Shown one piece after another: positions 7,202 to 38,663 of a stretch of 42,737 nucleotides of DNA; position 1 is the stretch's first letter, and each line of letters begins with the position of its first letter. The notes below the pieces were generated by a model. It was not told the origin of the DNA. It worked only from the letters and a program-made list of their open reading frames with translations, and searched no databases. The translations under genes and the position numbers were made by a program. Source of the stretch: Desulforegula conservatrix Mb1Pa (GTDB lineage: Bacteria > Desulfobacterota > Desulfobacteria > Desulfobacterales > Desulforegulaceae). The stretch spans positions 1-42,737 of the forward strand of contig NZ_AUEY01000030.1 of NCBI RefSeq assembly GCF_000426225.1, read 5' to 3'.

Positions 7202-8362
7202 TCACTTCTTTAAAATCGATAGAATAATATCAGCTGCCCTTCCTGCTGCGCCCGGCCTTCCGAGTTTTTTTCTTACAAGCAGAAAATCAGACTTCATTTT
7301 GTCAAGCTTCTGTCTATCATTCAACAAACTTATAATTTCTTTGGAAATTCTTTCAGGATTAGCCTCGCCCTGAAGAAGTTCAGGAGAAACCTCACGTCCG
7401 GCAATAAGGTTGGCAAGTCCGGCAAACTCAACTTTTACGAGTGCCTTTGCAATACTGAAGCTCAGGTCTGACATGATATATATAAGAATAGTCGGAATAC
7501 CTGCGATGGCGGCTTCAAGCGTTACTGTACCAGATGAGGCCACAAGAACATCACATCTCTCAAAAACTGCCCCTACGTCTCCGGTTTCAACTTCAATTAT
7601 TTCACTGAGACCACATAAAGCTATCTGTTTTTTAGCGTATGCTTCATCTTTCATGGAAAGCAGAAAACCGGCGCAGGGAATGCTCTTTTTTATTATGGCC
7701 GCAGCTTCAAGCATCACAGGAAGATGCCTTGAAATTTCACCCTTCCTTGATCCAGGAAGAAGACCGATTACCGTTCTGCCATCTAAAGATTTACGGCGAT
7801 TGTCCTTCGAAGGTTCGGGGATGGAATCAATCAGAGGATTGCCGACAAAAGTGGCAGGGATTCCATTCTTTCTGTAAAAGGATTCTTCAAAGGGAAGGAT
7901 CAGGCCCATATGATCTATATACCGACGTATTTTTTCGATTCTGCCAGATCCCCATGCCCATACCTTGGGACTTATATAATAAAAAACCGGGATCCCAAGG
8001 TCATGGGCTTTTTTGGCTATACGCAGATTTAAGCCGGGATAATCGACAACAATTACAATGCCGGGCATTGATTCCTGAATAAAAGAAGAGACAGTGGCAT
8101 ATGCGTCAAATATTATATGGCTGTGGCTTAGAACATCAGTCACACCCATCACAGCAAGTTTTTCCGAATTACAAACAGCTTCAACGCCCTGCTGTCTCAT
8201 CAATGGCCCTGCCATCCCATGTATTTTGAGACCAGGTTTTTTCTTTAAAATCTCCCGAACAAGATTGGCTGCGTGGAAATCACCTGATGGTTCACCGGCG
8301 CTAATGAAAATGATGTTTTTATTTAGTTCCGGTTTTTTAGCAGATTTAAAAAAGCTGATCAT
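7202..8362 (-). CDS. lpxB: Lipid-A-disaccharide synthase
   Basis: A 386-residue GT-B enzyme of family GT19 that joins UDP-2,3-diacylglucosamine and lipid X to make the lipid A disaccharide on the inner membrane. Typical features are IFISAGEPSGDFHAANL near residues 18-34, GLNLRIAKKAHDLGIPVFYYISPKVWAW in two parts near 110-137, FVGNPLIDSI and LLPGSRKGEI in the middle, and the ASSGTVTLEAA loop near 275. Length is normal for LpxB. The ATG overlaps the lpxI stop by 4 nt (ATGA type), showing translational coupling. Confidence 0.95.
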   Translation of the reverse strand: MISFFKSAKKPELNKNIIFISAGEPSGDFHAANLVREILKKKPGLKIHGMAGPLMRQQGVEAVCNSEKLAVMGVTDVLSHSHIIFDAYATVSSFIQESMPGIVIVVDYPGLNLRIAKKAHDLGIPVFYYISPKVWAWGSGRIEKIRRYIDHMGLILPFEESFYRKNGIPATFVGNPLIDSIPEPSKDNRRKSLDGRTVIGLLPGSRKGEISRHLPVMLEAAAIIKKSIPCAGFLLSMKDEAYAKKQIALCGLSEIIEVETGDVGAVFERCDVLVASSGTVTLEAAIAGIPTILIYIMSDLSFSIAKALVKVEFAGLANLIAGREVSPELLQGEANPERISKEIISLLNDRQKLDKMKSDFLLVRKKLGRPGAAGRAADIILSILKK

Positions 8363-30990: not shown

Positions 30991-31071
30991 AAACATGCCT
31001 TTCTACTAAAATTTGGGGGAGAAGGCAGGGTTGAGCATGAAAACATGCATATATTGTATTTACTTCTATGA

Positions 31072-31222
31072 TGGTCTCGCAAAAAGCCAGAAAAAGGCAT
31101 CAGCGTAATGCCGGACTTGTTCCGGCATCATTGTATTTTCAGATACTTCCTTTCCGGCTCCCGGTTTTCACCGGGACAGGCCCCGCCGGAATGACGGTAA
31201 TCGAACTTTTTGCGACGTTGTC
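31072..31222 (+). repeat. Dispersed MITE-like repeat, copy D
   Basis: About 151 bp, from tggtctcgcaaaaagccag to aactttttgcgacgttgtca. It contains gtaatgccggacttgttccg and the strong internal stem formed by ccggttttcaccggg and ccccgccggaatgac. This is one of the most complete copies together with that at 34,573. Confidence 0.8.
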
Positions 31223-31265
31223 ATCTATAAAAAGAATTATCGAAAAAAACTAAACGGCTCTTGAT

Positions 31266-32101: not shown

Positions 32102-32776
32102 TTGAATATGGAAAAACACTTTGCTATTGATGATCTAAAGTTAGAAGAGTCATGGAGACTTTTTAAAATTATTGGCGAGTTTGTGGATGGTGTCGAAGCT
32201 CTCCATAACATAGGGCCAGCGGTAAGCATATTCGGTTCGGCAAGAATCACTCCTGATAATCCTTACTATAAAAAATCCATGGAAGTTGCAACTCTGCTTG
32301 CAAAAAACGGTTATGCAATAATAACCGGTGGTGGTGGCGGCGTCATGGAAGCAGCAAATAAAGGGGCTAAACTGGCAGGCGGGATATCGGCCGGACTCAA
32401 TATTTCATTGCCATTTGAACAGGAGCCAAACCCATACGCTGATATTAAAATCGAATTCAAATATTTCTTCATACGAAAAGTTATGTTTGTAAAATATGCC
32501 AAAGCCTACATAATAATGCCCGGGGGCTTTGGAACCCTGGACGAAATGTTCGAAGCAATAACTCTAATCCAAACCAAAAGAATAATGCCCCTTCCGGTGA
32601 TCCTTGTCGGCTCAGACTACTGGGGAGGCCTGATTGACTGGATAAAAGACAGACTCATAACAGAAAAAATGGTCTCTCCCAAGGACATCAATATACTTCA
32701 GGTCATGGATGATCCTATAAAGATCCTTGAGGCAGTTAACAAGGCTGCACACGCAAGGCCAATCGAACAGGACTGA
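32102..32776 (+). CDS. LOG family protein (TIGR00730-like nucleotide phosphoribohydrolase)
   Basis: A 224-residue Rossmann-like protein of the LOG/lysine decarboxylase-like family. VSIFGSARI, ITGGGGGVMEAANKG near residues 75-89, and the hallmark PGGFGTLDE near 139-147 are all present. Characterised members split a ribose 5-phosphate from nucleoside monophosphates, including cytokinin forms; bacterial roles are often in nucleotide clean-up. The likely start is a TTG at 32,102, with AAGG 9 nt upstream; an ATG two codons later is the alternative. Confidence 0.85.
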   Translation: MNMEKHFAIDDLKLEESWRLFKIIGEFVDGVEALHNIGPAVSIFGSARITPDNPYYKKSMEVATLLAKNGYAIITGGGGGVMEAANKGAKLAGGISAGLNISLPFEQEPNPYADIKIEFKYFFIRKVMFVKYAKAYIIMPGGFGTLDEMFEAITLIQTKRIMPLPVILVGSDYWGGLIDWIKDRLITEKMVSPKDINILQVMDDPIKILEAVNKAAHARPIEQD

Positions 32777-32787
32777 TAATCAATGTA

Positions 32788-32910
32788 TAACAAAAAGTCA
32801 AATTACCGTCATTCCGGCGCAGGCCGGAATCCAGAAGTGGCTGAAATTACAGGATGCCTGATCAAGTCCGGCATGACGCTAAAGCCATTTTTTGACTTTT
32901 TGCGAGCCCA
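32788..32910 (-). repeat. Dispersed MITE-like repeat, copy E
   Basis: About 123 bp ending in gactttttgcgagccca, with gtcattccggcgcaggccgg near its other end and gatcaagtccggcatgacg in the middle. Orientation is opposite to the copies at 31,072 and 34,573. Confidence 0.8.
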
Positions 32911-32958
32911 TCAACACTTAATTATGAATAAAAAAATCATTCATTCAAATCCAATAAA

Positions 32959-32987
32959 TTGTGTTTTCAAAAAATTTGTTCTATAAA
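32959..32987 (+). promoter_or_regulatory. Possible promoter of the GAF/kinase pair
   Basis: TTGTGT (32,959-32,964) and TATAAA (32,982-32,987) are separated by 17 nt, about 90 bp before the GAF gene ATG. The -10 is good, the -35 matches in only three positions. Confidence 0.35.
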
Positions 32988-33077
32988 TTAAATAATAATC
33001 TTCCCAGAAACATTTCAAATTATTCAGATTCCACGGATCATTTTTCTGCGTTTTAATGACAATTCAGGAGAATCAAA

Positions 33078-33656
33078 ATGACTGAAAGAGCTCAGCGTAT
33101 AACCTTAAGAGAGTTCAAGGCAATAAGCAGCGCTATATCTTCATATGAAGATATAAACCTATTGGGCAGGCATCTTGTTGAAGGTATATGCAGAGCATTC
33201 AGAGTTAAAGGATGCAGCATTTTCCTGGTGGACGACAGAGAAAAACAGCTTTTCAGGGTAAGCACATATGGGCTGAGTGAGCATTATCTGACTAAAGGGC
33301 CTATGCAGATCGATGAAGCATCCATAGAATTCTCCATGGGGGAGCCAGTATACATAGAAGACACCCAGAATGATCCAAGAATTAAATACGCCAAGGAAGC
33401 AAAAGAAGAAGGTATTCATTCCATGCTTTCCGTACCTATAAAATCAAAAAGCATAGTTGTTGGACTCCTTAAAATATACAATGACACTGCGCTTAATCTT
33501 CATGATGAGGATCTTGATTCTTTCAGGGTTCTTGCAAAGCAGGTTGGCGTAGTGATCGAAAACAACGGCCTTAGAAATTTTCTGGACAGAATAAAAATGG
33601 CTCTTGAGAGTCTGCCACTAAGAATGCTTGACGGATTAAATGGTGAATATGACTAA
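33078..33656 (+). CDS. Stand-alone GAF-domain protein
   Basis: A 192-residue soluble protein that is essentially one GAF domain (about residues 20-170), with EDINLLGRHLVEGICRAF, CSIFLVDDREKQLFRV, VYIEDTQNDPR and MLSVPIKSKSIVVGLLKIY as the main strands and helices. GAF domains bind small ligands such as cyclic nucleotides, tetrapyrroles or nitric oxide, or act as protein docking units; which applies here is not shown. GGAG lies 8 nt before the ATG. The 3' end overlaps the start of the kinase-fold gene by 8-17 bp, so the two are translationally coupled and probably act together, for example GAF as sensor and kinase fold as output. Confidence 0.85.
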   Translation: MTERAQRITLREFKAISSAISSYEDINLLGRHLVEGICRAFRVKGCSIFLVDDREKQLFRVSTYGLSEHYLTKGPMQIDEASIEFSMGEPVYIEDTQNDPRIKYAKEAKEEGIHSMLSVPIKSKSIVVGLLKIYNDTALNLHDEDLDSFRVLAKQVGVVIENNGLRNFLDRIKMALESLPLRMLDGLNGEYD

Positions 33657-34557
33657 AAAAATATTCACAGAAACATCAGATTTTTACTCAATAGATTATG
33701 GCTCTGAGCTTCATCTGCCTAACGGAAGAATATTTTCAATAATTGGGAATTCGAAAGAACGTAGATTTGGTGTCGAAGATCCTAAATTTTGGGTCAAGAA
33801 TGCAATAGATATCCAGACCCAGGAAAAAAAAATAATCAAGCTGGAGTATTTCGAATCATTTGTAACAACGTTGGCGGGAGTGAAAATCAGGTGCTTCCGG
33901 GATCCAAAAAAAGAAGCTGACATTCTTGAACTGGTCAACAATCATCCTCTTTTCATGCACGGGACATCATGTATTGACCCCAAAGGATTCAATATCAGAG
34001 TTCTTGATGTTGTAAGAGGACAAAACTTATATACATATCTTGAGGGCGTGGATCTTGATTATAACAGATATTATAGAGAGCTGCTTCCTGGAATTCTGAC
34101 AAAATTAACAGATACTTTTACCGCCCTTCAATTTCTTAATAATAGCGGATTCAGGCATGGCGACGTCAGGAATGACCATGTAATAATTGAAAACAGTACA
34201 GGAAATTATGTCTGGATTGACTTTGACTACGACTATGAATCCACGGAGAATCCTTTCGCACTTGATATTTTTGGAGTCGGAAACATTTTATTATATACGA
34301 TCGGCAAGGGTTTCCACACTCTTTACATGATAGACGGAGACAGAGAAAAATACGGTGAACTGGTGGAGAATCTTTACGCCGAGGATTTTTCACTGCTCGA
34401 TAAATGGCGCTATGTGAATCTAAAAAACATTCACCCTATAATATCAGACAGTCTGAACAATATCTTGCTCCATTTTTCAAAAGGATCAGAGGTTTATTAT
34501 GAGTCAGTTCAGGAAATAATTGACGAGCTAAAAGAGGCAATAAAAGACTCTTTTTAG
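33640..34557 (+). CDS. Kinase-fold protein with WaaP-like catalytic loop
   Basis: A 305-residue soluble protein with the protein kinase-like fold. The probable ATP-binding Lys is K67 (KIIKLEYFE), partner Glu E92 (KKEADIL), catalytic loop HGDVRNDHVII (H173, D175) and metal Asp in IDFDYDYE (D194 or D196). The position five after the catalytic Asp is His (H180), not the usual Asn; WaaP/KdkA-type LPS kinases also have His there. An active enzyme is therefore plausible but the substrate is open: protein, sugar or lipid. The C-terminal third (about 215-305) is helical and may be a lid. Start choice is ATG 33,640 or 33,649, both inside the GAF gene end. Confidence 0.75.
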   Translation: MVNMTKKIFTETSDFYSIDYGSELHLPNGRIFSIIGNSKERRFGVEDPKFWVKNAIDIQTQEKKIIKLEYFESFVTTLAGVKIRCFRDPKKEADILELVNNHPLFMHGTSCIDPKGFNIRVLDVVRGQNLYTYLEGVDLDYNRYYRELLPGILTKLTDTFTALQFLNNSGFRHGDVRNDHVIIENSTGNYVWIDFDYDYESTENPFALDIFGVGNILLYTIGKGFHTLYMIDGDREKYGELVENLYAEDFSLLDKWRYVNLKNIHPIISDSLNNILLHFSKGSEVYYESVQEIIDELKEAIKDSF

Positions 34558-34843
34558 TTTTTCTCAACGATCGATGATCTCGCAAAAAGCCAGAAAATAC
34601 CCTCAGCGTCATGCCGGACTTGATTTGGCATCTGTGTATTTTCAAATACTTCTGGATTCCGGATTCCGGCTTCCGGTTTTGACCGGGGCAGGCACTGCTG
34701 GAATGACGGGAATCAAACTTGTTGCAACCTTGTCACTCTTAATAAAAATGAACAAGCAAGACATGCTAAGCCAGTTGTAAAATTCTCTTTAAAAAAATCT
34801 TGGATGAGAGATTTCATTGATATTCTTTCCAAAGGAGGTTGTT
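34558..34843. other. Intergenic region with repeat copy
   Basis: About 285 bp between the kinase-fold gene and the UspA gene. Most is taken up by copy F of the dispersed repeat. The last 100 bp, AT-rich, should hold the usp promoter, but no clear -35/-10 pair was picked. Confidence 0.45.
34573..34735 (+). repeat. Dispersed MITE-like repeat, copy F
   Basis: About 163 bp, from gatgatctcgcaaaaagccag to aacttgttgcaaccttgtca. It holds gcgtcatgccggacttgatt, attccggattccggcttccg and ctgctggaatgacggg. It is the longest copy and starts 16 bp after the kinase-fold gene, so its internal stems may also act on the 3' end of that transcript. Confidence 0.8.
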
Positions 34844-35317
34844 TTGAAAAATAAAATATTAGCCGCCGTAAGTGATTCTCCAAGCTCATGGGCTGTAATA
34901 GAATTTTTGGGAAGTTTATCCCTGTGCCCTGAACAAGTAGAAATAACCCTCCTGAATGTCCTTAGAAAGCCATCTTCAGGCGAAGAGCTGATGGGGAAAA
35001 AATTTATTGAAGAACAACCTGAAAGATTCCTTAAAACCCTTGAAAAGGCCAAAGAGCGCCTCATGGAAAAAGGTTTTTTTGAAGAATCCATCAAAATAGA
35101 TGTCATCAATGAACCCTTTCCAACCATAGCAGAAGGCATAATCGAGTATTTCAACAAGAATCACTTTAATATGGTTCTTATTGGCAGAAAAAAAATGTCT
35201 AAAGCAGAGGAATTCGTGTTAGGGGATGTAAGCGTTAAACTTGTCAGGGCACTTGATTCAACTGCCGTTGTTGTAGTAAAGATAGATCCTGTTTGGCATG
35301 ACAGGTGTCCACTTTAA
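34844..35317 (+). CDS. Universal stress protein, UspA family
   Basis: About 157 residues, the usual size of a single Usp domain. The start KNKILAAVSDSPSSWAVIEFL and the middle DVINEPFPTIAEGIIEYFNK, NMVLIGRKKMSKAEEF and the end STAVVVVK follow the family plan. The G-x2-G-x9-G(S/T) ATP loop is incomplete (GRKKMSKAEEFVLGDVS), so ATP binding is uncertain. A strong AAAGGAGG site lies 5 nt before a TTG at 34,844, which is chosen over the earlier ATG-like start at 34,817. Confidence 0.8.
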   Translation: MKNKILAAVSDSPSSWAVIEFLGSLSLCPEQVEITLLNVLRKPSSGEELMGKKFIEEQPERFLKTLEKAKERLMEKGFFEESIKIDVINEPFPTIAEGIIEYFNKNHFNMVLIGRKKMSKAEEFVLGDVSVKLVRALDSTAVVVVKIDPVWHDRCPL

Positions 35318-35337
35318 TTCTTTAAAATTATTATTTA

Positions 35338-36528
35338 ATGGCTAACAAAAAAAAAAACTGTGCAACCGTCGCAATGTTAGGCTCATACCCTCCAATCAGG
35401 GGTATCAGTCCATATTGCGCAGAGTTGACCAACTACTTGGCTTTATATATAAATAAATTTATATTTATATCTTTTAATAAAATATATCCTTCTCTATTGT
35501 ATCCCGACGGAGCAAATCAGACAGACGAAACTACGCATATAGATACGCCATCCAATGTAAAAGTTAGTAGAAGGCTTTCATGGTACAATCCATTTTCATG
35601 GGTATCAGAAGCTTATTCGACAAACTGTGACATACTTCATGCCCAGTGGTGGAGTCTGCCTTTATGGCCAATTTATTTTGTCATTTTATGCATAGCAAAT
35701 CTCAGAAAAAAGCCTGTTATTATAACCGTACATAATGTTATTCCCCATGAAACCAGCATCATATACAAGATTTTAGTGTCATTTCTTTTAAAAAAAGCAA
35801 ACCATTTTATAGTACATACAAAAATCAATAAAATTCAGCTAAGCTCATATTTCAAGATACATGAAAAAGATATTTCAGTAATTCCTCACGGCCCGATCGG
35901 AGCGTATATTGATTCAGATACTTGCTTTTCCGCAGGCAAAAAAGCATTAAAAAATAAACTTGGACTTAGAGACAGCTGCAAAGTAATTCTTATTTTTGGA
36001 GCCATAAGAAAATATAAAGGAATTGACACAGCTCTCTACGCGCTTGAGAAAATATGCGCCAAAGGAATAAACTGTCACCTTATCATTGCAGGAAAAGCTT
36101 GGGTTCCATGGGAGCCATATGATAAGCTTGTCAAGCAACTAAAACTTGAAAAAAACGTCACTTGCTTCACTGATTACATCCCTGCAGACCAGGTAAAAAT
36201 TTTTTTTGCTTCTGCAGATCTTGTTATTCTGCCTTACAAACATTTTGACGCTCAAAGCGGGGTAGCAAGCGTAGCCGGAGCCTTTGGAAAGCCTATGATA
36301 GTATCTGATACAGGTGGTCTTTCAGACTGGGTTGCAGATAAAAAATGGGCCTTGCCTCCAGATAATGTAGATGCTTTGGCAAATGCAATGACAGAATGTC
36401 TCGAAGACCAAAATATTCTTAATAAAATGACAATTGATTCAGAAAAAATGGCAAAGCTTCATTCATGGGACTCCATTGCCAAAAAAACATCTGAACTATA
36501 CCAAAAAATTTTTAATGATGTTCTTTAG
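35338..36528 (+). CDS. Family 4 glycosyltransferase (GT-B)
   Basis: A 396-residue GT-B glycosyltransferase. The N-terminal acceptor domain opens with AMLGSYPPIRGISPYCAEL and includes ITVHNVIPH; the C-terminal donor domain has VILIFGAIRKYKGIDTALYAL near residue 215-235, LIIAGKAW, and the E-x7-E-like region near VILPYKHFDAQSGVASVAGAFGKP (in parts). Such enzymes build surface polysaccharides or glycolipids. It begins 20 bp after the usp stop with no good ribosome site, and starts the glycan block. The radical SAM gene follows 7 bp later. Confidence 0.85.
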   Translation: MANKKKNCATVAMLGSYPPIRGISPYCAELTNYLALYINKFIFISFNKIYPSLLYPDGANQTDETTHIDTPSNVKVSRRLSWYNPFSWVSEAYSTNCDILHAQWWSLPLWPIYFVILCIANLRKKPVIITVHNVIPHETSIIYKILVSFLLKKANHFIVHTKINKIQLSSYFKIHEKDISVIPHGPIGAYIDSDTCFSAGKKALKNKLGLRDSCKVILIFGAIRKYKGIDTALYALEKICAKGINCHLIIAGKAWVPWEPYDKLVKQLKLEKNVTCFTDYIPADQVKIFFASADLVILPYKHFDAQSGVASVAGAFGKPMIVSDTGGLSDWVADKKWALPPDNVDALANAMTECLEDQNILNKMTIDSEKMAKLHSWDSIAKKTSELYQKIFNDVL

Positions 36529-36535
36529 GCTTTTC

Positions 36536-37669
36536 ATGAAAGATTCAATAACACTGATCACATCATCCCTACGTTTTTTAGCAATCCGGACAGGTTTTTT
36601 AAAACCGTGCGTTCCAATCAACCTGACTTTTTCTGTAACAAATATATGCCAGTCAAGATGCAAGACATGCTCAATATGGAAACTATATAAAGATAATCCC
36701 GAAAAAAGGCAGGAAGAGCTTACAATTCAGGAAATTAGAAAGATATTTGAACCAATGGGGAGAATATATGTTTTCAATGTCAGCGGCGGGGAACCTTTTC
36801 TAAGGGATGATTTCCCGGAAATCATCAAGCTTGCATGTACTTATCTTAAACCATCAGTTATTCATATACCGACAAATGCAATTGCCGAAAAAAAAATCAG
36901 AAAAAATCTTATTGTTATTCTTGATTATCTAAAGAACAACTACCCAAACGTAAAACTGACAATAAAACCCAGCCTTGACCATATCGGTAAAAAGCATGAT
37001 GAAATAAGAGGCATAAACGGTAATTTTGAAAAAGTAATTTCAGTTTTCAAATGGCTTAAATCTTTGAAAACAGACTATCCTTTTCTTCATGCAGAGCTTG
37101 GGACTGTGGTTTCATCATGGAATGTCAGAGACATAGGTAAAATTTCAAAATATGTCAAAACACTTAATCCAGATAGTTACAGAAACGAAATAGCTGAAAA
37201 AAGATCTGAAATGTTTAATACTGGTGAACCAATAACCCCAGGACCAAATGCTTACAGAAAGGCAATAGACTTTTTTGTTAAGGAAATAAAATCCCAAATG
37301 AAAAATAAAAGTCTCTTTCAGCGCATTACAAACGCATTCAGACTGGTTTATTATGATCTTGCAATCAAGATAATGGAAGAAAAAAAACAGGTTATCCCAT
37401 GCTATGCAGGCATATCAAACGTCCACATGACCGCTTACGGAGACATCTGGCCTTGCTGTACTCTGGGCTATGATAAATCCATGGGCAATTTAAGAGATTT
37501 TGACTATGATTTTAAAAAATTATGGAACAGCCGGCAGGCATTAATGATAAGAATGAGTATTTACAATAAAGAATGCCATTGTCCACTAGCAAATCAGACA
37601 TACTCAAATATTCTTCTGGAACCAAGAAGTCTGATTAAAGTTCTTAAGATTATTATACTGAGCAGGTAA
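36536..37669 (+). CDS. Radical SAM protein with SPASM-like C-terminus
   Basis: About 377 residues from the ATG at 36,536, which sits 7 bp after the glycosyltransferase stop with AGG upstream; a longer frame lies within that gene. The radical SAM cluster motif is CQSRCKTC (Cys 38, 42, 45), with NVSGGEPFLRDD as the SAM-binding region. The C-terminal part has further cysteines (CYAGISN near 289, PCCTL near 306, CHC near 346) around AYGDIWPCC, as in SPASM/twitch domains that hold extra iron-sulfur clusters. The substrate is unknown; its place between a glycosyltransferase and an epimerase suggests a sugar or lipid-linked glycan. Confidence 0.8.
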   Translation: MKDSITLITSSLRFLAIRTGFLKPCVPINLTFSVTNICQSRCKTCSIWKLYKDNPEKRQEELTIQEIRKIFEPMGRIYVFNVSGGEPFLRDDFPEIIKLACTYLKPSVIHIPTNAIAEKKIRKNLIVILDYLKNNYPNVKLTIKPSLDHIGKKHDEIRGINGNFEKVISVFKWLKSLKTDYPFLHAELGTVVSSWNVRDIGKISKYVKTLNPDSYRNEIAEKRSEMFNTGEPITPGPNAYRKAIDFFVKEIKSQMKNKSLFQRITNAFRLVYYDLAIKIMEEKKQVIPCYAGISNVHMTAYGDIWPCCTLGYDKSMGNLRDFDYDFKKLWNSRQALMIRMSIYNKECHCPLANQTYSNILLEPRSLIKVLKIIILSR

Positions 37670-37673
37670 AAAT

Positions 37674-38663
37674 ATGAAATATCTCATAACAGGCGCAACA
37701 GGATTTATGGGGCCTCACTTGGTTAAAAGATTGACTGAAGAAGGTCATTATTGCAGATGCCTGGTAAGATCCAGAAAGAAAGCAGAAAGACTAATTGAGT
37801 ACATGAATATAGAAATCATCGAAGGAGATATAACCGATCCTAAAACTCTTATTGGTATTGCTGATGGCGTCGACAGACTTCTCCACATGGCTACTCTAGG
37901 GCATATGAATAATTTTGTAGTCCAAGAAGACATGTTCGAATCAGTTAATGTCAATGGCACTGTAAATATCATGAATGAAGCTCTTAAGACAGGTGTACCA
38001 AGAATAGTTCACTGTAGCTCAGTGGCTGCAATGGGTATATGTGATGAAATACCTTCTGACGAAAAAACCCTTTGCAAACCTCATCACCCTTATGGAAGAA
38101 GTAAGCTGAAAGCCGAAGAAAAAGTGAGGGATATGGTAGTTTCATCTGGCCTTCCAGCATCTATTATCAGATTTTCTATGGTATATGGTCCTGGCGACTG
38201 GCGTGATATGCTCAAGCTGACAAAATTAGCAAAAAAGGGCCTTTTTCCTAAAATTGGAACAAAACCCAAACTCACACCACTAATTCATGTATCAGATGCA
38301 GTTAATGGACTTCTTCTTGCTGCTGAAAAAGGCATATTTGGAGAGACGTATCTGATAACAAACAAAACATCTGAAAAATTTGACGATATAAGACAGATGA
38401 TTATTGATGGTCTTGGTGTAAAAAGATTTCCACTTTATGTTCCAGAGTCTCTTGCACTTTTGATTGCAGAAGGATCAGAAAAATTATTCACTAAGATTGG
38501 TAAAAACCCTCCGGTAGCAAAAAAAAATATTGAATCAACTCTTGCGGACAGAGTTTTCTCAATAGAAAAAGCATCCATTGAACTTGGTTTCAGTCCAATT
38601 GTAAAACCCATTGACGGAATCAGGGAAACTGTTCAATGGTATAAAAAGAATAACTGGATATAA
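37674..38663 (+). CDS. NAD(P)-dependent epimerase/dehydratase, extended SDR family
   Basis: A 329-residue extended short-chain dehydrogenase. The Rossmann start YLITGATGFMGPHLVKRL (residues 3-20) is clear, as are HCSSVAAMG and the catalytic YGRSK (Tyr and Lys), with FSMVYGPGDW after it. Members act on nucleotide sugars, on 3-beta-hydroxysteroids or on related alcohols; the exact substrate is open. It lies 4 bp after the radical SAM gene and 18 bp before the methyltransferase, so all three probably form one operon. Confidence 0.85.
   Translation: MKYLITGATGFMGPHLVKRLTEEGHYCRCLVRSRKKAERLIEYMNIEIIEGDITDPKTLIGIADGVDRLLHMATLGHMNNFVVQEDMFESVNVNGTVNIMNEALKTGVPRIVHCSSVAAMGICDEIPSDEKTLCKPHHPYGRSKLKAEEKVRDMVVSSGLPASIIRFSMVYGPGDWRDMLKLTKLAKKGLFPKIGTKPKLTPLIHVSDAVNGLLLAAEKGIFGETYLITNKTSEKFDDIRQMIIDGLGVKRFPLYVPESLALLIAEGSEKLFTKIGKNPPVAKKNIESTLADRVFSIEKASIELGFSPIVKPIDGIRETVQWYKKNNWI

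Follow-up and report, generated by a model that had tools for sequence, protein, structure and literature searches.

A compact GAF-kinase-Usp gene unit whose atypical kinase family recurs beside sulfate-respiration genes

The stretch of Desulforegula conservatrix Mb1Pa DNA analysed here (contig NZ_AUEY01000030.1, 42,737 nucleotides, hereafter "the window") carries two overlapping genes at positions 33,078-34,557 which raise the question of whether a lone GAF domain and a kinase-like protein form a signalling unit of their own, and if so what that unit might control. A sequence-only reading had proposed such a pair, and both of its gene assignments are borne out: the first gene encodes a GAF-domain protein (PF01590, 3.6e-13; 50.6 bits against a cut-off of 22.4), and the second is a kinase-fold ORF at 33640-34557. 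That reading mentioned a UspA gene only as a follower of the pair. A universal stress protein (Usp) gene does lie 3' of the pair (PF00582, 1.5e-11; 45.4 bits against a cut-off of 24), but it proves to be a third member, and the notion of a two-gene unit is given up. The features of the locus are:

33066..33070, + strand: Shine-Dalgarno-like AGGAG of the GAF gene (read from the sequence)
33078..33656, + strand: GAF-domain protein, 192 aa (Pfam, fold model, neighbour survey)
33640..34557, + strand: atypical kinase with Hanks fold, 305 aa, or 302 aa from the ATG at 33649 (ORF, profiles, model)
34156..34179, + strand: kinase catalytic loop HGDVRNDH, with D175 and H180 invariant (sequence, alignment of 50)
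34213..34236, + strand: kinase WIDFDYDY, with metal-binding Asp194 and DFD replacing DFG; the stretch D194 to alpha-F Asp209 is 16 residues long (alignment)
34573..34762, + strand: dispersed-repeat copy in the kinase-Usp gap, outside the system (genome-wide repeat matches)
34833..34838, + strand: Shine-Dalgarno-like AGGAGG of the Usp gene (read from the sequence)
34844..35317, + strand: universal stress protein of 157 aa with a TTG start codon (PF00582; follows the kinase in 48 of the 52 surveyed rows of the window's kinase clade)
35183..35233, + strand: degenerate Usp ATP motif GRKKMSKAEEFVLGDVS, compared with the form G-2x-G-9x-G(S/T) (sequence, motif comparison)

The GAF and kinase ORFs overlap by 17 bp if the kinase starts at ATG 33640 and by 8 bp if it starts at ATG 33649; the latter start fits the N-termini of related proteins better. 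The gap between kinase and Usp is 286 bp and contains one of the two repeat copies (31070-31250 and 34573-34762) that had been thought to bracket the pair. These copies belong to a family of about 150-190 bp that is dispersed throughout the genome (41 listed matches for 34574-34730, its own copy counted); because of this dispersal the flanking repeats carry no meaning for the pair, and they were rejected as borders of a unit. The promoter that the sequence-only reading had assigned to the pair was not recovered either, since no sigma-70-like site lies on the + strand between 32776 and 33078. Across 32700-35500 there are five sites of this sigma-70-like class, the only class searched, versus a mean of 8.1 in shuffled sequences. 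Downstream of the module (35338-38663) lie glycosyltransferase, radical SAM/SPASM and epimerase genes which show no conservation with it.

Of 291 genomes sampled from the window's order, 131 have the kinase, as do 69 of 395 sampled across the phylum (eight of the 69 being from that same order); a scan of GTDB contigs with patterns from close relatives gave 57 loci, and gene neighbours were mapped in 85 loci holding a kinase row. The kinases fall into two subfamilies that are split by their identity to the window protein (48-59% in the first, to which it belongs, and 33-45% in the second), and the first forms a clade with 100/100 support on a long branch. Of the 52 rows in this clade, 42 have GAF directly 5' of the kinase and Usp 3' of it (40 of 50 when the duplicate pairs L038/L089 and L064/L097 are counted once), with median ORF gaps of 2.5 bp between GAF and kinase and 17 bp between kinase and Usp. 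The pair of the sequence-only reading is thus conserved together far beyond chance, and GAF, kinase and Usp make up one compact conserved unit. Six of the ten exceptions have Usp only; five of these are cut by contig ends (L042, L057, L065, L067 and L087) and one (L068) is a partial kinase reading. The other four (L049, L056, L069 and L090) have neither partner, and together with L118, which has all three genes, they form one 100/100 clade. The second subfamily has an adjacent Usp in 30 of 36 rows (26 downstream and 4 upstream, counting L034, whose Usp belongs to a neighbouring first-type module with GAF) and GAF in none; of its six rows that lack Usp by ORF, L071 has a Usp match by tblastn. 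Beyond the three genes the largest neighbour family is sulfate adenylyltransferase (sat), present in 9 of the loci grouped.

Several other arrangements were seen. Loci L031 and L034 combine both subfamilies in tandem, a second-subfamily kinase coming immediately after GAF-kinase-Usp; in L031 this kinase has a Usp of its own. In three relatives of Desulfomonile (L084, L085 and L086) a second-subfamily kinase without Usp lies 3' of genes that resemble those for electron-transfer flavoproteins and 5' of rhodanese-like genes, as judged by eye. One locus from a bin labelled "Omnitrophota" (L047) groups with Desulfobacterota; since the tree places its kinase there, the bin may be misassigned. Spread of the module by plasmids was considered and rejected, as tblastn of the kinase against 72,556 plasmid records gave no match at E ≤ 0.01.

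The two putative sensors differ between the subfamilies in parallel. The model of the window's GAF protein has a GAF fold (mean pLDDT 85.3, confident in the core), and its nearest solved relatives are the GAF domains of PtsP (EI-Ntr), 3ci6 by sequence (6.5e-15) and 3trc by fold (2.0e-12); unlike PtsP, the module's GAF stands alone, without phosphotransferase parts. ATP-binding Usp proteins carry the motif G-2x-G-9x-G(S/T). The window's Usp does not (GRKKMSKAEEFVLGD), and the canonical motif occurs in 0 of 48 rows (46 distinct) of its clade versus 27 of 30 in the second subfamily, where the exceptions are L034, whose Usp is that of the first-type module, and L105 and L111, which have Asn for Gly. 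Because GAF presence and the state of the Usp motif divide the two subfamilies along the same line, these sequences suggest that GAF took over the sensor role from an ATP-binding Usp. It seems that a single gain of GAF took place at the root of the window's clade, in the same lineage as the change in the Usp motif, which would amount to a sensor swap.

What the unit might control is hinted at by the genomes that carry it. Outside the window's order, 35 of 40 kinase carriers have aprA over the cut-off, versus 11 of 40 non-carriers (Fisher p 7.3e-8; the 40 carriers were taken from 61 found outside the order, and both sets of 40 were picked by handle number), and the remaining 5 carriers have no aprA over the cut-off. 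Within the order co-occurrence carries no information, since an aprA match is almost universal there (270 of 291 genomes, 233 over the cut-off). On the other hand 160 of these 291 genomes do not have the kinase family, so sulfate reduction does not need it.

A sat gene lies within 10 kb of a first-subfamily kinase in 9 of 64 genomes from six families (G012, G081, G085, G122, G174, G216, G243, G363 and G573), where 0.48 would be expected under an assumption of random placement that ignores kinship; for the second subfamily in the same genome sample the count is 0 of 23. The other 55 of the 64 have no sat within 10 kb, and the window's genome is one of them: its kinase is on contig C30 and its sat and aprA are on C17, draft assemblies being able to hide such links. 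The arrangements vary. In L049 the kinase lies between two sat genes and in L056 sat and kinase are convergent, both kinases being without GAF and Usp; in L064 sat is divergent from GAF, and in L093 it follows Usp. In L074, L076, L077, L078 and L081, which form one clade, sat is followed by a second-subfamily kinase. In L116 a single strand reads sat, kinase, Usp, an ORF of about 229 aa (7563-8252, no Pfam match), aprB, aprA, qmoA, qmoB and qmoC. In L118 aprB, aprA, qmoA, qmoB and qmoC are followed by a 490-aa ORF on the other strand, then by Usp, kinase and GAF in leftward orientation and sat in rightward orientation; L117 has the same leftward Usp, kinase and GAF, then rightward sat, then aprB and aprA; and in L119 rightward sat meets a leftward kinase, with qmo and apr genes further on. 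NCBIfam models confirm sat, aprB, aprA and qmoC in L116 and sat, aprB and qmoC in L118, and the genes called qmoA and qmoB in these two loci have HdrA-type matches below the model cut-offs and are named from their position. The kinase family is over-represented in aprA-bearing genomes, and in several lineages its genes adjoin sat or are embedded in a sat-apr-qmo cluster. Because the module recurs in sulfate reducers and next to sulfate-respiration genes in more than one lineage, it may be a switch for sulfate-respiration metabolism. The reading that we favour, tentatively and at somewhat less than an even chance, is that of a sensor-controlled atypical kinase in a three-gene intracellular signalling module, seen here chiefly in sulfate-reducing Desulfobacterota, that would tune energy or sulfate metabolism.

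A broader role deserves the most serious weighing against this. The module could be a general device for starvation or redox stress in which the kinase modifies Usp and has no dedicated part in sulfate respiration, its links to sat and apr merely reflecting the clustering of energy genes. Usp is indeed the steadiest partner in both subfamilies (48 of 52 rows in the first and 30 of 36 in the second, the latter with L034's borrowed Usp), most modules do not adjoin sat, and there is a likeness to E. coli UspA, which is reportedly phosphorylated in stasis. This reading is nonetheless somewhat unlikely, as it accounts poorly for the aprA enrichment, for the repeated independent placement by sat, apr or qmo in differing orientations, and for the four kinases that lost both GAF and Usp, two of which (L049 and L056) adjoin sat. 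A further, more specific possibility is a kinase dedicated to sulfate respiration and gated by GAF or Usp. Its targets would be Sat, AprAB or Qmo, whose phosphorylation would control dissimilatory sulfate reduction at its early steps, which cost ATP, and in one lineage GAF would have taken the place of an ATP-sensing Usp; we consider this reading unlikely.

Neither Pfam nor NCBIfam has a model that the window's kinase ORF matches at E ≤ 1. When 50 relatives were compared singly with Pfam at E ≤ 0.1, however, the Pkinase family PF00069 was matched by 43 (best 2.7e-8), Kdo/WaaP PF06293 by 12 (best 0.0069), APH by 8 and PK_Tyr_Ser-Thr by 7, and a profile built from these relatives matched RNase L (2.6e-8) and then MSK1 (5.6e-8) best among solved structures. 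The AlphaFold model (pLDDT 93.4, pTM 0.90) is a two-lobed protein kinase fold. Its best 50 Foldseek rows are protein kinases (E from 4.2e-08, with middling TM-scores of 0.38-0.54), and the best VIA-align match is PknB (Z 18.0, rmsd 3.3 over 220 residues); the best 50 VIA-align rows are Hanks kinases and do not include WaaP, RIO or Bud32, an absence which is no proof. Lys67, Glu92, Asp175, His180, Asp194 and Asp196 are invariant in the 50 aligned relatives, and the alpha-F Asp209 is present in 49. The kinase thus shares fold, Lys/Glu/Asp/Asp set and alpha-F Asp with Hanks Ser/Thr kinases such as PknB, Stk1 and YabT. It differs from them in that the signature catalytic-loop Asn and DFG are absent (His180 replaces the metal-binding Asn, and Asp196 makes DFD, in 50 of 50) and in that the segment Asp194-Asp209 comprises only 16 residues in all 50, with no full activation segment ending in APE; the equivalent span in MSK1 (3kn5) is about 37 residues. 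By its profiles, model fold and residue alignment, the predicted protein is a divergent Hanks-fold enzyme without a normal activation segment.

The sequence-only reading had compared this protein with WaaP-type kinases on the strength of the His in HGDVRNDH. The substitution itself is real and invariant, and WaaP too has His at this position, along with a short activation segment. Since Pkinase outmatches Kdo/WaaP and the nearest solved folds among the best 50 rows are Hanks kinases, the likeness is confined to the His and perhaps the short segment and does not extend to the protein overall; membership in the WaaP/Kdo family was rejected because PF06293, a weak match, is not the best family. 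A further difference from WaaP/Kdo kinases is that the conserved partners of the module kinase are GAF and Usp. WaaP, choline kinase and APH enzymes phosphorylate small molecules, and the very short activation segment (16 residues in 50 of 50), the HGD...H and IDFDY motifs and the weak matches to APH (8 of 50) and Kdo/WaaP (12 of 50) would all suit a kinase with a small-molecule substrate. The best profile matches are nevertheless protein kinases, and the partners are a sensor domain and Usp rather than a biosynthetic pathway, other neighbour families reaching at most 9 of the loci grouped, which makes this reading decidedly improbable. Least probable, and very unlikely in our view, is a pseudokinase that relays the GAF or Usp state to a partner by shape as a nucleotide-binding scaffold, in the way of the RNase L kinase-like domain. 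No solved structure matched the sequence profile better than RNase L, which also has DFD and a short segment, its alpha-F Asp lying about 18 residues beyond DFD. Unlike RNase L, the module kinase has no ankyrin or nuclease parts and has His for Asn. Lys67, Glu92, Asp175, His180 and Asp194 are retained in 50 of 50 relatives, as expected under selection for catalysis, and active WaaP-type kinases likewise have His for Asn, both of which speak against a pseudokinase.

If the sensor-controlled kinase module is the right reading, it might work as follows. The GAF protein would be made in step with the kinase, bind it and set its activity. The sensor of a small ligand or of the nucleotide state, and with it the control of the kinase, would be GAF in the first subfamily and an ATP-binding Usp in the second; for the window we infer control of the kinase by a GAF ligand. 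The kinase would then phosphorylate Usp, one of the enzymes that activate sulfate or serve energy metabolism (Sat, AprAB or Qmo), or both, so that ATP-costly sulfate activation would be matched to the energy or redox state. A precedent for a kinase and a Usp that restrain an energy-costly complex after translation is KdpD, whose N-terminal serine kinase domain, with a Usp domain, phosphorylates and inhibits KdpFABC and which has GAF as a further domain (PMC11018627). In KdpD, as in the module, Usp and GAF sensor parts are joined to a kinase. However, KdpD is one protein that unites a histidine kinase with an atypical serine kinase of the Walker type, whereas the module has a Hanks fold and separate genes; family scans of the three module proteins found neither the N-terminal Walker domain of KdpD nor its histidine kinase part. 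An archaeal Usp is described as a partner of the phosphatase PP2A (PMC7472852).

Each part of the module is a known kind of protein. In the open PMC literature we found no description of the gene combination, of the short-segment kinase subfamily or of the link to sat, apr and qmo, nor of any kinase devoted to sulfate reduction, and subscription papers may contain earlier notice of such genes beside sat. Among anaerobic respirations sulfate reduction is a major one, and for testing whether sulfate activation is controlled after translation the module offers a set of named genes and culturable hosts (Desulfonema magnum and Desulfoluna species). Sensor replacement likewise becomes testable, in a lineage whose Usp lost the ATP motif as GAF was gained.
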